Positions 25,513 through 39,446 of a stretch of 64,000 nucleotides of DNA are shown piece by piece. The notes under the pieces were generated by a model that saw only the letters and a program-made list of their open reading frames with translations, did no database searches and was not told the DNA's origin. This DNA comes from Bacilli bacterium. GTDB lineage: Bacteria > Bacillota_I > Bacilli_A > RF39 > UBA660. Positions within the stretch are counted from its first letter, which is position 1. Every line of letters starts with the position of its first letter. The stretch is taken from positions 1-64,000 of the forward strand of contig JAFSGC010000008.1 in the NCBI GenBank assembly GCA_017434825.1. The letters run 5' to 3'. The position numbers and the translations under genes were made by a program.

Positions 25513-25698
25513 TTATTCACAAACTCCTTCACCAGGATTCTTGCCTTCAACATAGGTTTGGCCAAGCATTCCGCAAGACGCCTTAGTAATAGCATCCTTT
25601 AGATAGCCCCCAAAATAATTTACTAATGCAATAGCAATTACACTAATTAATGCAATAATCAGAATATATTCTACTAATGCTTGTCCTTTTTTGTTCAT
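25513..25698 (-). CDS. Flp/class III prepilin-like protein, last gene of the ATPase-like operon
   Basis: A 61-residue protein starting MNKKGQALVEYILIIALISV. KKG^QALVEY is the processing site of Flp-type (and class III) prepilins, with the conserved Glu at +5 followed by Tyr, and a hydrophobic helix of about 20 residues. The mature end is short and has two cysteines (KASCGMLG and EGVCE). The ribosome site is AGGTGA. It lies 26 bp after the gamma-like gene with no terminator between, so it is probably co-transcribed. Maturation needs a prepilin peptidase; none, nor a TadA/CpaF ATPase, is in the window. Confidence 0.8.
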   Translation of the reverse strand: MNKKGQALVEYILIIALISVIAIALVNYFGGYLKDAITKASCGMLGQTYVEGKNPGEGVCE

Positions 25699-25724
25699 AA
25701 TTTTAATTCACCTAAATCCTTTAC

Positions 25725-36400: not shown

Positions 36401-39400
36401 TAAATGAAACTGAATTAGTATCACTTACCCAAGGGAATAGAATCATTGATGGAATTTGTTTTGGAACTTCTATCGGTAACGATTTAACAGGAGTCGGAGT
36501 TTCAATATCATCAGATGAGAACGGATAAACTAAATCTGTTTCGCCATCATCGTTTAAGTCTAACTTAACAGTGTACTCAACTTGATATATACGTCCACGT
36601 TTGAAGAAATCAGGATAATCTTTAAACATGAATTCATAAACAGGAATAATACTGCCTTCATCAATTTCAAGTTTGTCTGAATAAGTCATTTGAGCAGCCT
36701 GAGCAGTTGTAATATCTCTAATAACGAAATTAATCTCTGTTACATACTTTTTATTACCAAAGCTTGGCGTAACTTTTAAACCAATGATTGTATCTCCATT
36801 TAATGCATCTTCGCGATATGCAGGTTTTTCACTATTTAAAATAGGAGTCACTGCAATTGTTGCATCATTATTCGATAATCCTAAGAGAACATCGTTAATT
36901 TCAAATGTTAGTGAATACGGTTTAAATTCTACGTAATCAACACCACTCTTACCGTTTGTAAGTTTAATAGTATATTTTTTAGATATTTGACCATCTTGCG
37001 TTATATGAAGTTTAATTAAATCGTCAAGAGTTAAACCAAAGTCTTTTAGGGTGAATGTTTTGGCATTATTGAAGAACTCTTCAACGATATTGGTTTCAGC
37101 GCCAATATGAATTGATCCCAAGTACATTCCTGTTGCATCAGCGCCTTCATATAACATAATGTCAAACCCTGACATATTGTCCCTTACTGTTTCTGAAGTA
37201 GTTTCATCAATTGAAAATTGCATATTTACTTCAAATACTTTTTCAAAAGCCTCTATTTCATCTAAGTCTCTTGCAGACATATCAGTTAAAATAATATCAG
37301 CTTTTTCAGTCATTAATTTAATAGCCCCAATTTGTGTATAACCAGCTTCAATCTCTTCTGATTCTAAATCAACGAATGCCATTAAACCAATTGTATAAAC
37401 CTCATCACTTGTAAGTTCAGAAAGTTCTAAATAAGCACATTTTGTTGTTTCACTTTCTTCATCTGGGCACTCATTATACTCTAGCATTTTAGTATCACTT
37501 ACACCTAAACTATTTACATATTCAACATAAATATTCTTGGTAGTATCAATAGCGTTATCACTATCTGTAATTGTAAAGTAACCATTTAATGAATTTGATG
37601 TTACTCCAGTTGTTGTAAATCTCATCGTTGGACTCATCTTCGCATCTAGGTTAAAATCGTTACTTGCTAGTGTTTCATAATCAATATTCTTTTCATTATC
37701 ATTCAATGAAATAACAGCTTTATAATAGTATGTATGATGATTTTTAATGTCTTCATCTGTTTTAACTTCGATAGGGTTTAAAGTTTCTTTCTTAATAGAT
37801 TTTACGACTTCATCAGTTTCTTTATCATACACTACATATGTTACTCCTTTGATTGTAGCATCATCATCAACGATAGCGCCTAAATCAAATTTAATATTAT
37901 AGTCTTTCTTGTTTGTTATAGCTATTGGAGAAGCCACAACACTTCCATCCTTAAATGGATTAAACTTTAATGTTTTATTTTCTAGGGTCACAGCAGCACC
38001 GCCAGTATACACAACATTGCCATATGTGACATTTTCAATTTTAGCAGTATATTTAGTATTACTCTTTAAACCGCTGAACGTAACATTTTGGCTTTGGCCA
38101 TTATTTGTAAAGTCATAACTTTCAATTAAATTACCTTGAGTATCGTATAAATTTAACGTGGCATTTGTAAACGTTGCATTTTCAGAAAAATTAATATTGT
38201 ATGAAAGCTCGTCGCTTGTAACATAATCTTTTACTAAATCTAACCCCAAATCTCTAGTAGAGAATGTTCTTTGGAACATTGTGTAATCATTAAATATCGC
38301 ATTATTTCTCACGTAAGAAGCAAATATTGTAACTAAATAATCAGTATTACTTCTTAATCCATCTGCAATATAATCAATCGTTCCAGAATAATTTGTATAC
38401 GTTTTATTAACGATTTCGCCAGTTTGTAAGTTAACATATCTAACTGTTACCGGGCCACTTATTAAGTTATTCTTATCAATTACATTAAATTCTAAATTAA
38501 TTTTATGAGAATTAACTGAACTATTTAAAAGTTCAACATACGGAATATTTTTATATTCAATAACTGTTTCGACCTCATATTCTGGAGTACTTCCTCCGGT
38601 TTGACCAGAACCACCAGAACCTTGACCTCCGCCCTCTCCTGGTTGACCATTACCTCCAGTTTGGTTTCCACCGTCTCCAGAACCGCCGCCAGAACTTCCT
38701 AACTCAGGTTCCTCATATAAAATATCAATATTCTCATTATGATTTATAATAATTTCACTCAAGTTAATCTTAGCTTCGTTTTCATAAAAAATCACTTGTT
38801 TACTAAGATCAATCTTAATTTTGTCGCCAACCATTATGTAGGCTTCATCACTAATAGTCTCAATATTCAATTTTCCGTTATCTATTTTCACAGTTTGACC
38901 ATCAATAAAATTCAATTCAAAATAATAATCAGAAATAAGTTCTTCAGAACTACTTAGCTTTAATTTCAAGCCGTTACCAGCAACAATGTATTTACTATCA
39001 TTGATTCTACCAATAAAATTATCAATTACAATGTCTTTTTCAGTAGAGTCTATCACATATTTACCAGAATTATATTCAATTAAATAATTACTTTTAATAT
39101 TGTAATACGGTACAAATGCAGAACCAACTTGATTCAAATCTAATAAAACTCCATCTGTTAAGAAGTTAATAGATTTATCTTCATAAAACACAAAATTGTA
39201 CTTGCCAACTTCTTGTTTTACATCATCTTTATCTTTAAAGATTACTTCTTTACCATAACCTCTTTTATAACTAGTACCCTCTGTAAAATAAATTTTTTCA
39301 GATTTTTCTGAGTCACTAATGCTTACATAACCATTTTTATAAAAAACAGTTGCATCCTTTGTAGCTATTTTATAAATCGAAAAAAGAAGTGCTGTAAACA

Positions 39401-39446
39401 CTACAACGCTCACAAAAACAATGATCATTAATGATTTATTTTTCAT
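33432..39446 (-). CDS. Giant anchored surface protein (about 2004 residues), first gene of the ATPase-like operon
   Basis: The ATG at 39446 (MKNKSLMIIVFV) follows AGGGTG; a GTG nine bases upstream is possible. The product has one N-terminal membrane helix (about 5-24), a beta domain to about residue 245, a Gly/Gln/Ser hinge (about 247-290), then about 1700 residues of repeated beta modules. Recurrent phrases such as TVRYVNLQTG, GLRSNTDYLVTIFASY, GLKSNTKYTAKIENV and NVGTTYYLKAYMKM are Fn3-like. There is no C-terminal sorting motif or second helix. So it is a long fibre-like stalk held by its N-terminus. No enzyme motif seen. Its position ahead of F1-like genes suggests a surface structure acted on by the ATPase. 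Confidence 0.85.
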   Translation of the reverse strand: MKNKSLMIIVFVSVVVFTALLFSIYKIATKDATVFYKNGYVSISDSEKSEKIYFTEGTSYKRGYGKEVIFKDKDDVKQEVGKYNFVFYEDKSINFLTDGVLLDLNQVGSAFVPYYNIKSNYLIEYNSGKYVIDSTEKDIVIDNFIGRINDSKYIVAGNGLKLKLSSSEELISDYYFELNFIDGQTVKIDNGKLNIETISDEAYIMVGDKIKIDLSKQVIFYENEAKINLSEIIINHNENIDILYEEPELGSSGGGSGDGGNQTGGNGQPGEGGGQGSGGSGQTGGSTPEYEVETVIEYKNIPYVELLNSSVNSHKINLEFNVIDKNNLISGPVTVRYVNLQTGEIVNKTYTNYSGTIDYIADGLRSNTDYLVTIFASYVRNNAIFNDYTMFQRTFSTRDLGLDLVKDYVTSDELSYNINFSENATFTNATLNLYDTQGNLIESYDFTNNGQSQNVTFSGLKSNTKYTAKIENVTYGNVVYTGGAAVTLENKTLKFNPFKDGSVVASPIAITNKKDYNIKFDLGAIVDDDATIKGVTYVVYDKETDEVVKSIKKETLNPIEVKTDEDIKNHHTYYYKAVISLNDNEKNIDYETLASNDFNLDAKMSPTMRFTTTGVTSNSLNGYFTITDSDNAIDTTKNIYVEYVNSLGVSDTKMLEYNECPDEESETTKCAYLELSELTSDEVYTIGLMAFVDLESEEIEAGYTQIGAIKLMTEKADIILTDMSARDLDEIEAFEKVFEVNMQFSIDETTSETVRDNMSGFDIMLYEGADATGMYLGSIHIGAETNIVEEFFNNAKTFTLKDFGLTLDDLIKLHITQDGQISKKYTIKLTNGKSGVDYVEFKPYSLTFEINDVLLGLSNNDATIAVTPILNSEKPAYREDALNGDTIIGLKVTPSFGNKKYVTEINFVIRDITTAQAAQMTYSDKLEIDEGSIIPVYEFMFKDYPDFFKRGRIYQVEYTVKLDLNDDGETDLVYPFSSDDIETPTPVKSLPIEVPKQIPSMILFPWVSDTNSVSFKYNVTDVDGALPDGYKVYYEIGESSLEGEAATCANSSDLKGKNYTSKYDCVKFTGLNNGDVYNVYLNPILIEAEGTEATRVDINNFTFEGVYDISNVRFDLELNELGSSKYNNLFSLKISEPYDSLTEEEKLLNKQLKNRIAFYTLELAIEGSNKKFVINNITNSARITSPISSNMIDYYEGASVKASWRNTSKYDNLSRIAYVGTCDDEVSTCLYVDYSKLYNSTTFKNVFGSFKNANLTVSLSAMYDSGNISYLANGQGKYAFQVMSNEIIEQNGQVYNDNYLSVHGITLDKVTFSPSALSAVYAYANSKGGFVDDNADDNNIGSGKIYFINTIYSNLIPTQSTNFINPSYVVTNRGIEVTFGYGALQVTLPIVAKELKSSTINGIGNFKFDRVIPSINVMGKANIINGIKVNLGLSGITENDIDAEEDGNRYVFVEVYDKETDAFVKELKVNKDYLTIQKGTVVDGRYKLVADSDYKFDITAVRTTAGAVENYSYDHRTGIITFDETVTDNTEITVEYRIVIDKLNVGTTYYLKAYMKMAGQKTYLVDTTSSTYATFNYEFTTKTAEEVSVSNAALDTVSETDYATRYLTTNYKIDDIVGIDNLEYQICNDDNSICVDASKYKACDISYNNYDGTCFTKNGSYLASIYHDISISEDLDFEFNTNYNLVINAVVEELDGQVNKYEIYNNSLNLRALKNPSVNVIKNAEFKDGKNPYLSFDILFTDPDRVISKPEVNKENGQYIAYLATGADKVKIEGTEFVLNVTENGLDMMTTLTYENLDVNSAYYLMIDYKTYTNNVGGTVENVYSVPYLIYTLGDNGISVGRIEYSALSNTSILKFGYATNMTRDYISLEDGSLIPDPDQEAYVAGIVYHITRTSGDNLFAIDGTLIFDENNKVEHKNDSSSSETIGDNYYQITIPNTNYPVGAGYSILFQFYLGGNVASGLTTESLCLDNSVSNYWNATTNECYILDDTKYDAYTMYESGKAA

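Follow-up and report, generated by a model that had tools for sequence, protein, structure and literature searches.

What could an F1-type ATPase be doing when its genes are interspersed with genes for surface proteins? This question is raised by a 64,000-nucleotide stretch of a Bacilli bacterium genome (order RF39, family UBA660; assembly GCA_017434825.1, contig JAFSGC010000008.1; hereafter the window), in which twelve genes form a single minus-strand run at 39455-25513 with neighbours that overlap or almost touch. A first interpretation made from the letters alone (the sequence-only reading) had proposed a distinct ATPase driving a cell-surface structure. Our results suggest that the operon probably encodes an ATP-driven rotary motor that follows the F1Fo plan, has given up ion pumping and ATP synthesis, and does mechanical work on an extracellular assembly. 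The gene content, the residues lost and kept, the separate clade, the selection, the linkage to surface proteins and the gene fusion on which this proposal builds could all be established from the sequences.

The operon is not a chance gathering of genes, because the neighbourhoods are conserved in relatives. An alpha-profile scan of named genomes returned at least 157 relatives, and 80 loci were kept and read, a set that holds likely copies of stretches from the window's own family (e.g., L045 and L024). The loci originated from gut and rumen Bacilli metagenome-assembled genomes, Lachnospiraceae (17 loci, three of which, L093, L097 and L104, belong to one assembly, JAEEIH), Kineothrix alysoides, Chakrabartyella piscis, Bifidobacterium colobi and others. 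Every kept locus (80/80) encoded alpha and at least two further parts in a shared order, and all seven motor genes were present in 62/80. The order c, b-delta, alpha, gamma, beta, epsilon, a-like was found in 38/80 loci and the gamma-last order of the window in 24/80; the a-like gene was fused in 10/80, and the remaining loci were truncated or split. The c gene was located at 75/80 loci, the other five comprising two with c elsewhere in the genome and three that begin at a contig end before the place of c. A b-delta gene was found in 78/80 loci and a same-strand protein of at least 1300 amino acids (aa) in 58/80. The cluster was split in L068 and L071, with c elsewhere in the genome; in L071, c lies on the same-numbered contig ca. 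15 kb from alpha, and in L068 a recombinase-like gene stands upstream of the split point.

The distribution of the cluster was patchy. Besides the window's genome, alpha matches were obtained in 8 of the 116 family genomes searched. Seven of these were of the new type, in clusters of like kind that are divided between two contigs in G058 and G095, whereas the eighth, G067, carried an ordinary atp operon instead and was the only one of 117 family genomes with PF00119 (canonical subunit a). A b-delta profile matched 30/385 genomes of the order (28 strongly, two at E = 1e-5 to 1e-4), 3/392 genomes of a phylum sample (two strong, one being the window's own) and 25/200 genomes of the Kineothrix family; three of the last were strong, including Kineothrix, and the other 22 were partial matches at E = 8e-7 or worse and were judged to be noise. 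No relative was found in the viral contigs searched. The Bifidobacterium locus is no obvious contaminant, because its GC content (0.597) is like that of two canonical atp loci in the same genome (0.566 and 0.598). Two full-length new-type alpha genes per genome were observed in G421 and G422 (the genomes of L080 and L090), which, together with the three loci of assembly JAEEIH, indicates that the system can be multi-copy.

The catalytic part of the motor has been retained across these relatives. Counted with near-copies included, a strict P-loop was found in 83/88 alpha sequences (the other five read GDKKTGKS, GSKKTGKT or GDKRSGKT) and the arginine finger pattern in 87/88, the single miss being SVSRIG in L052. 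In beta, the strict P-loop was found in 82/84 sequences (L099 reads GGAGIGKT, and L045 is cut by a stop), GERxREG in 83/84 and a Walker-B-like pattern in 78/84. These counts indicate that the alpha and beta catalytic motifs of F1Fo ATP synthase are kept. Selection on the operon was estimated as the ratio of nonsynonymous to synonymous substitution rates (dN/dS) between the window and its three nearest relatives, with dS near or beyond saturation in most comparisons, so that the values are rough. The lowest dN/dS was that of c (0.02 and 0.07; the third comparison was saturated), alpha, beta and gamma gave 0.05-0.13, and the surface proteins gave 0.28-0.68, a sign of loose constraint. Subunit c is, on these estimates, the most constrained gene of the operon. 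Separately, a long repetitive acidic/proline-rich C-terminal extension of alpha was seen at L029 4888-9138, L030 1-1945 and L027 2776-4464, with an open frame of up to 1416 aa.

The membrane part seems to have lost its ion path. Across 24 residues of the second transmembrane (TM) helix, TM2, neither Asp nor Glu was present in 82 of 83 c sequences (72 distinct), whereas canonical c sequences keep Glu, both in G067 (L032) and in two genomes that also host the new type (L249 and L251); L250, from a third such host, was filtered out of this comparison. One new-type c (L077) has an Arg at the membrane edge. The 168-aa a-like protein was modelled with a predicted local distance difference test score of 89 and a predicted template-modelling score of 0.81, and in the model TM1 is followed by a short amphipathic helix, then by a hairpin and finally by a pair of helices of 30 residues each, a layout that we took to be that of ATP-synthase subunit a before the fold comparison came out. 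In a second-look fold search, 7 of the 50 rows listed aligned over at least 146 of the 168 residues, and all seven were ATP-synthase entries (Z = 7.4-10.1); their lengths fit, and the chains were taken as probable subunit a. Sequence proof of this identity was sought and not obtained. In the fifth long helix of the a-like protein, Arg occurred in at most 1/69 sequences in columns 103-119, and basic residues were found at columns 101-102 (42 and 25 of 69), where helix five starts. Because c is without the ion-binding carboxylate and the a-like protein without the essential arginine, no ion path is expected, so that any rotation of the ring would have to do other work.

A candidate stator stalk is likewise suggested by a predicted fold. 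The model of the 247-aa b-delta protein begins with a long helix, after which comes a domain of helices and beta structure, and the first 37 rows of its Foldseek search were all ATP-synthase entries, including Mycobacterium b-delta. The matched stalk chains were read as putative delta/OSCP from chain letters and lengths. A search against PDB sequences gave no match that would prove b plus delta in this protein, so that fold is the support for it. The identities of both b-delta and the a-like protein thus come from predicted folds.

The giant protein of the window has an N-terminal TM helix, a membrane-proximal domain of ca. 200 aa, a Gly-rich linker and a long region with FN3-like motifs, and it had no Pfam match. 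Upstream giants of 1694-2286 aa were found in 41 other loci, and a second giant stood downstream of the cluster in 36 loci. By hydropathy, a single N-terminal TM helix was predicted in 41/42 upstream giants, 55/59 proteins of the 468-aa class, 49/49 of the 241-aa class and 35/36 downstream giants. The first 260 residues of these four surface proteins were related in five of six profile pairs (P = 1e-7 to 2e-9), with controls at 0.0018 or above for reversed profiles, 0.046 or above for shuffled ones and 9.8e-4 or above for the unrelated b-delta profile. The sixth pair (downstream giant versus 468-aa class) was not counted, its P of 9e-4 being no better than that of the upstream giant versus b-delta (9.8e-4). 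Gly-rich linkers come after the membrane-proximal domain; collagen-like GXY runs were found in 10/42 upstream giants and GXY or GGX runs in 21/59 proteins of the 468-aa class, and, for a few members, the regions past the linkers matched FN3/Ig weakly or modestly. In the Kineothrix giant (L096 623-7165), collagen-like GXY repeats (Pfam E = 1e-12) directly follow the membrane-proximal domain, and many 468-aa class proteins have their Gly-rich GXY/GGX runs at the equivalent place. Upstream of a giant surface gene, L025 162-2198 contains a tandem run of ca. 200-aa proteins with a common N-terminal segment like MENNGKGIFYGVIGVATLIVAIIGATFAYF, and a similar protein is encoded at L023 14588-15379.

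The a-like gene and the gene of the 241-aa class appear to form one reading frame of ca. 400 aa in ten loci, three of them from one assembly and some from Lachnospiraceae/Clostridia. The a-like part of these fusions was scored against 19 proteins and against the whole set of open reading frames. Against the 19 proteins, L065 and L064 matched strongly (E = 7e-18 and 7e-13) and L101 clearly (1e-8); the match was weak in six others (2e-6 to 2.5e-4; 5e-4 to 0.07 against the whole set) and undetectable in L107 (0.27), whose TM layout is the same. A profile built from the ten fusions matched the a-like protein at P = 6.6e-9. Through this fusion, the membrane sector is physically linked to the surface domain.

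The large-genome hosts tested carry the new enzyme in addition to an ordinary one. The genome from which the window comes (1.07 Mb; completeness 93.4%, contamination 5.8%) had no PF00006 match beyond the two of the operon and no PF00119 subunit a, absence from an incomplete assembly not being proof. Among 20 cluster-bearing genomes tested, canonical subunit a was found in 11, all of 2.0-4.7 Mb, and not found in nine, all of 0.8-1.5 Mb; a separate canonical alpha was present in each of the 11 large ones. An unrooted tree of 61 alpha rows, with long branches, included 27 new-type rows chosen from 88 and no row known as Mycoplasma Type 2. All 27 new-type rows fell on one side of a branch with support 100/99, 15 Mycoplasma Type 3 rows were grouped at 100/100, and 18 canonical rows were grouped at 100/99; L182, labelled canonical beforehand, grouped with Type 3 on a long branch. 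The tree suggests that the new-type alphas are one clade apart from ATP synthase and Mycoplasma Type 3, and sister relations are not claimed. The comparison of gene neighbourhoods in genomes matching alpha, which the sequence-only reading had proposed, was run and revealed conserved clusters in relatives, and its view of a distinct ATPase gains support from the separate alpha clade, the second canonical alpha in 11 large genomes and the purifying selection. It had also named the lack of another atp operon, with subunit a elsewhere, as a sign of an ordinary enzyme in decay; the window's genome indeed gave neither a further PF00006 match nor any PF00119 match, but in other hosts the two enzymes occur together.

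In the mechanism that we propose, alpha3-beta3 would hydrolyse ATP and turn gamma-epsilon, which would grip the c-ring via its kept RNPE loop, and the b-delta fusion and the a-like protein would hold the stator. Four paralogous single-TM surface proteins may form an extracellular assembly above the membrane part, and the motor would then move the long surface proteins by rotating, pulling or reordering them. The assembly of the motor, its rotation, the transfer of torque and the surface movement are inferred. The fuller version, in which ATP-driven c-ring rotation against an a-like/b-delta stator turns or pulls giant FN3/Ig/collagen-like surface proteins, so that the system would be a third F1-derived surface machine and the sole one keeping rotor ring and stator, is put forward tentatively, as a possibility slightly short of an even chance. 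From the earlier proposal of a driven cell-surface structure, the recurrent linkage and the fusion of a-like and surface proteins stand, whereas the drive (motion) itself goes beyond sequence evidence.

Several observations weigh against this proposal. Nothing in the sequence indicates a torque route to the surface proteins; in light of V-ATPase structures, a plausible one would be a surface-protein TM helix inside the lumen of the c-ring. A loose pattern of the DELSEED-like motif of beta was found in only 49/77 sequences. The epsilon assignment is weak, drawing on the position of the gene after beta, a match of one relative (L075) to PF02823 at E = 0.0035, below cut-off, and a sole PDB sequence match to a mitochondrial ATP synthase delta chain at E = 0.19. 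No Foldseek match of the b-delta model reached E < 0.001 and template-modelling scores were low, and in the second look the best Z was 6.3 over 121 residues, with the ATP-synthase stalk tied with V-ATPase stalk and FliH chains. The 168-aa protein resembles subunit a by predicted fold, and its assignment rests on that fold: the highest Z for its model (11.0) was given by unrelated four-helix bundles over the last 120 residues, Foldseek by itself gave E = 0.7 or worse, and hhalign against 11 canonical a sequences was not significant (P = 0.097). Furthermore, TM2 of one c among the 83 (L067, 7817-8062) does contain an Asp, adjacent to the former carboxylate position, and in 7/83 an acidic residue lies close to where TM1 ends on the outer side.

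These last residues, together with F1Fo parts that seem kept, the a-like protein included, could be taken as signs of a functioning ion pump whose ion path has escaped recognition and in which backbone, Ser/Thr or outer acidic residues bind ions. However, neither c helix has a conserved intramembrane acidic residue, the a-like protein has no conserved mid-helix Arg, and a pump leaves the linkage and fusion to surface proteins unexplained; we regard this explanation as improbable. Loss of charged residues from c and the a-like protein might instead mark an ordinary ATP synthase that is decaying and being lost from a reduced genome, and the small size of the window's genome, with no other PF00006 or PF00119 match, would suit such a history. 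Yet the catalytic residues are kept, purifying selection is strongest on c and the F1 genes, the alphas form one well-supported clade with conserved gene order, and 11 large genomes have the new type alongside a normal enzyme. Degradation is largely refuted by hosts that possess a canonical enzyme as well, for example Kineothrix and Bifidobacterium colobi, and we consider it highly implausible.

The surface proteins encoded alongside in most sufficiently long loci would also be expected if the F1 cycle loaded, folded, ordered or shed them, that is, if the operon encoded an ATP-driven assembly, export or release machine, somewhat as hypothesised for Mycoplasma Type 3 and MIB-MIP. MIB-MIP function requires the Type 3 ATPase (PMC12994834). 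On simple hydropathy, however, the proteins have ordinary N-terminal TM anchors for which a special exporter is unneeded, and a c-ring would seem superfluous in such a machine, so that this alternative appears unlikely. The rotary motor working mechanically on the surface assembly is the reading that we retain.

The operon itself is laid out in Table 1. The genes named by the sequence-only reading were all present in the order given, compact and on the minus strand, as judged from open reading frames and Pfam; its list had omitted the 120-aa gene at 26527-26889, and the five-helix protein that it noted can now be described further as subunit-a-like in predicted fold. Pfam assigned alpha (E = 6e-68) and beta (E = 1.4e-63) to PF00006, gamma to PF00231 (E = 4e-23) and c to PF00137 (E = 2e-6, over cut-off); the Flp-like pilin matched PF04964 at E = 2e-6, below cut-off. 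Pfam and NCBIfam gave a convincing family match for none of the b-delta-like, epsilon-like, five-helix, anchored and 120-aa proteins. The start of c was set at ATG 32009, matching the start in relatives, rather than at an upstream TTG. A single promoter and terminator had also been recognised, and candidates do lie at both ends, namely a promoter-like 10/12 site that includes TG (39505-39476) and, opposite, a T-run hairpin (25507-25490); such patterns were not commoner in the sequence than in shuffles (88 vs 97.4 and 4 vs 3.2, respectively). The Flp-type prepilin, previously counted as an operon member, accompanies the cluster in a minority of loci, all of them gamma-last and not confined to the window's nearest relatives. 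Neither it nor the 120-aa gene was present in any of ten family stretches; both are outside the wider conserved set, and a Flp pilus as a core part was rejected. Besides its place after gamma in the window, the prepilin was observed there in L036, L038-L040 and L042. Directly upstream of an HU-like gene adjoining the cluster, a gene for a large ATPase-like protein (window 39982-41460) has a product that presumably resembles the spore protein SpoIVA, in a host genome of only 1.07 Mb.

Table 1. Genes of the minus-strand operon in the window
Feature	Coordinates	Strand	Remarks
Giant type II surface protein	33432..39455	-	2007 aa from GTG; 2004 aa from ATG 39446
Second surface protein, 468 aa	32026..33432	-	Architecture of the giant, shorter
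Subunit c homologue, 81 aa	31764..32009	-	Retains the RNPE loop and Gly-rich packing of its helices; lacks the ion-binding carboxylate
b-delta fusion, 247 aa	31017..31760	-	TM and long helix, then delta/OSCP-like domain; basis: predicted fold
Alpha subunit, 446 aa	29693..31033	-	P-loop and arginine finger kept
Beta subunit, 448 aa	28347..29693	-	P-loop, GER catalytic Glu and DELSDED kept
Epsilon-like subunit, 87 aa	28091..28354	-	Beta-sandwich part only; weak basis
a-like membrane protein, 168 aa	27592..28098	-	Five TM and short amphipathic helix predicted; conserved mid-helix Arg absent
Anchored surface protein, 241 aa	26870..27595	-	No domain beyond the membrane-proximal one; some relatives carry it as a fusion with the a-like protein
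120-aa protein	26527..26889	-	Cluster neighbour in 3/80 loci
Gamma subunit, 263 aa	25725..26516	-	Final motor gene in the window; most other loci place it between alpha and beta
Flp-like prepilin, 61 aa	25513..25698	-	Cluster neighbour in 8/80 loci

Rotary ATPases are defined by the coupling of ATP to ions. If the proposed motor exists, a rotor-stator plan kept with its ion site deleted would amount to a natural uncoupling experiment, and it might parallel the gliding and MIB-MIP machines of Mycoplasma or represent an intermediate on the way to them. The system occurs in named sequenced strains (Kineothrix alysoides, Chakrabartyella piscis and Bifidobacterium colobi) and is therefore testable. 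Metabolic models that count new-type alpha and beta genes as ATP synthase should be treated with caution.

The N-type Na+ ATPase resembles the new type in being an extra F-type operon beside the usual one. In a report that covers N-ATPases and Tenericutes duplications (PMC4154653), N-ATPase is without delta, has atpR and shows the order beta-epsilon-I-R-a-c-b-alpha-gamma. In contrast, the new type differs in gene order and has a delta-like domain by predicted fold, and models of alternate F1F0 enzymes scored far below cut-offs on the operon proteins; identity with N-ATPase was rejected on gene order and model scores. Canonical F1Fo shares the F1 subunits and, in the commonest form of the new type, the order c-b-delta-alpha-gamma-beta-epsilon, as in G067, and Mycobacterium ATP synthase also has a b-delta fusion. 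It differs in its ion-binding c carboxylate, the conserved Arg in a and the absence of surface genes; alpha and epsilon of the new type have 446 and 87 aa versus 502 and 136 aa in the canonical enzyme of G067. The ATP synthase content of other reduced gut lineages is reported in PMC12306168. A full-text literature search, with coverage that leaves out most subscription papers, gave nothing among the matches listed that describes the cluster, and we do not claim that it is not in print.

Two of the closest known systems are found in mycoplasmas. The Type 3 F1-like X0 ATPase (MIB-MIP) has F1-like alpha, beta, gamma and epsilon, is linked to surface proteins and is extra to a real ATP synthase; it comprises 12-TM and 87-kDa proteins, with no homologue of known F0 or stalk subunits described (PMC3369863, PMC12994834). 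The new type, unlike Type 3, has c, a b-delta fusion and an a-like protein, and the alphas fall into separate supported groups; the 12-TM and two-TM large proteins of Type 3 were not noticed in the shared gene order, no profile search for them having been made. Mechanical work on the surface was proposed earlier to explain the gliding of Mycoplasma mobile (PMC11864180), and for MIB-MIP it is a hypothesis (PMC12994834). The M. mobile Type 2 (G1) enzyme is an F1-derived motor proposed to pass force through the membrane to giant surface proteins (PMC11864180, PMC12994834), with an alpha described as lacking the H1 helix and a cluster as lacking stalk genes (PMC11864180). The large N-terminal beta extension of G1 is not seen in the new type, whose beta has a median of 454 aa. 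F1-derived surface machines are thus already known, and we found no precedent among them for a complete rotor and stator kept in an ion-dead state.

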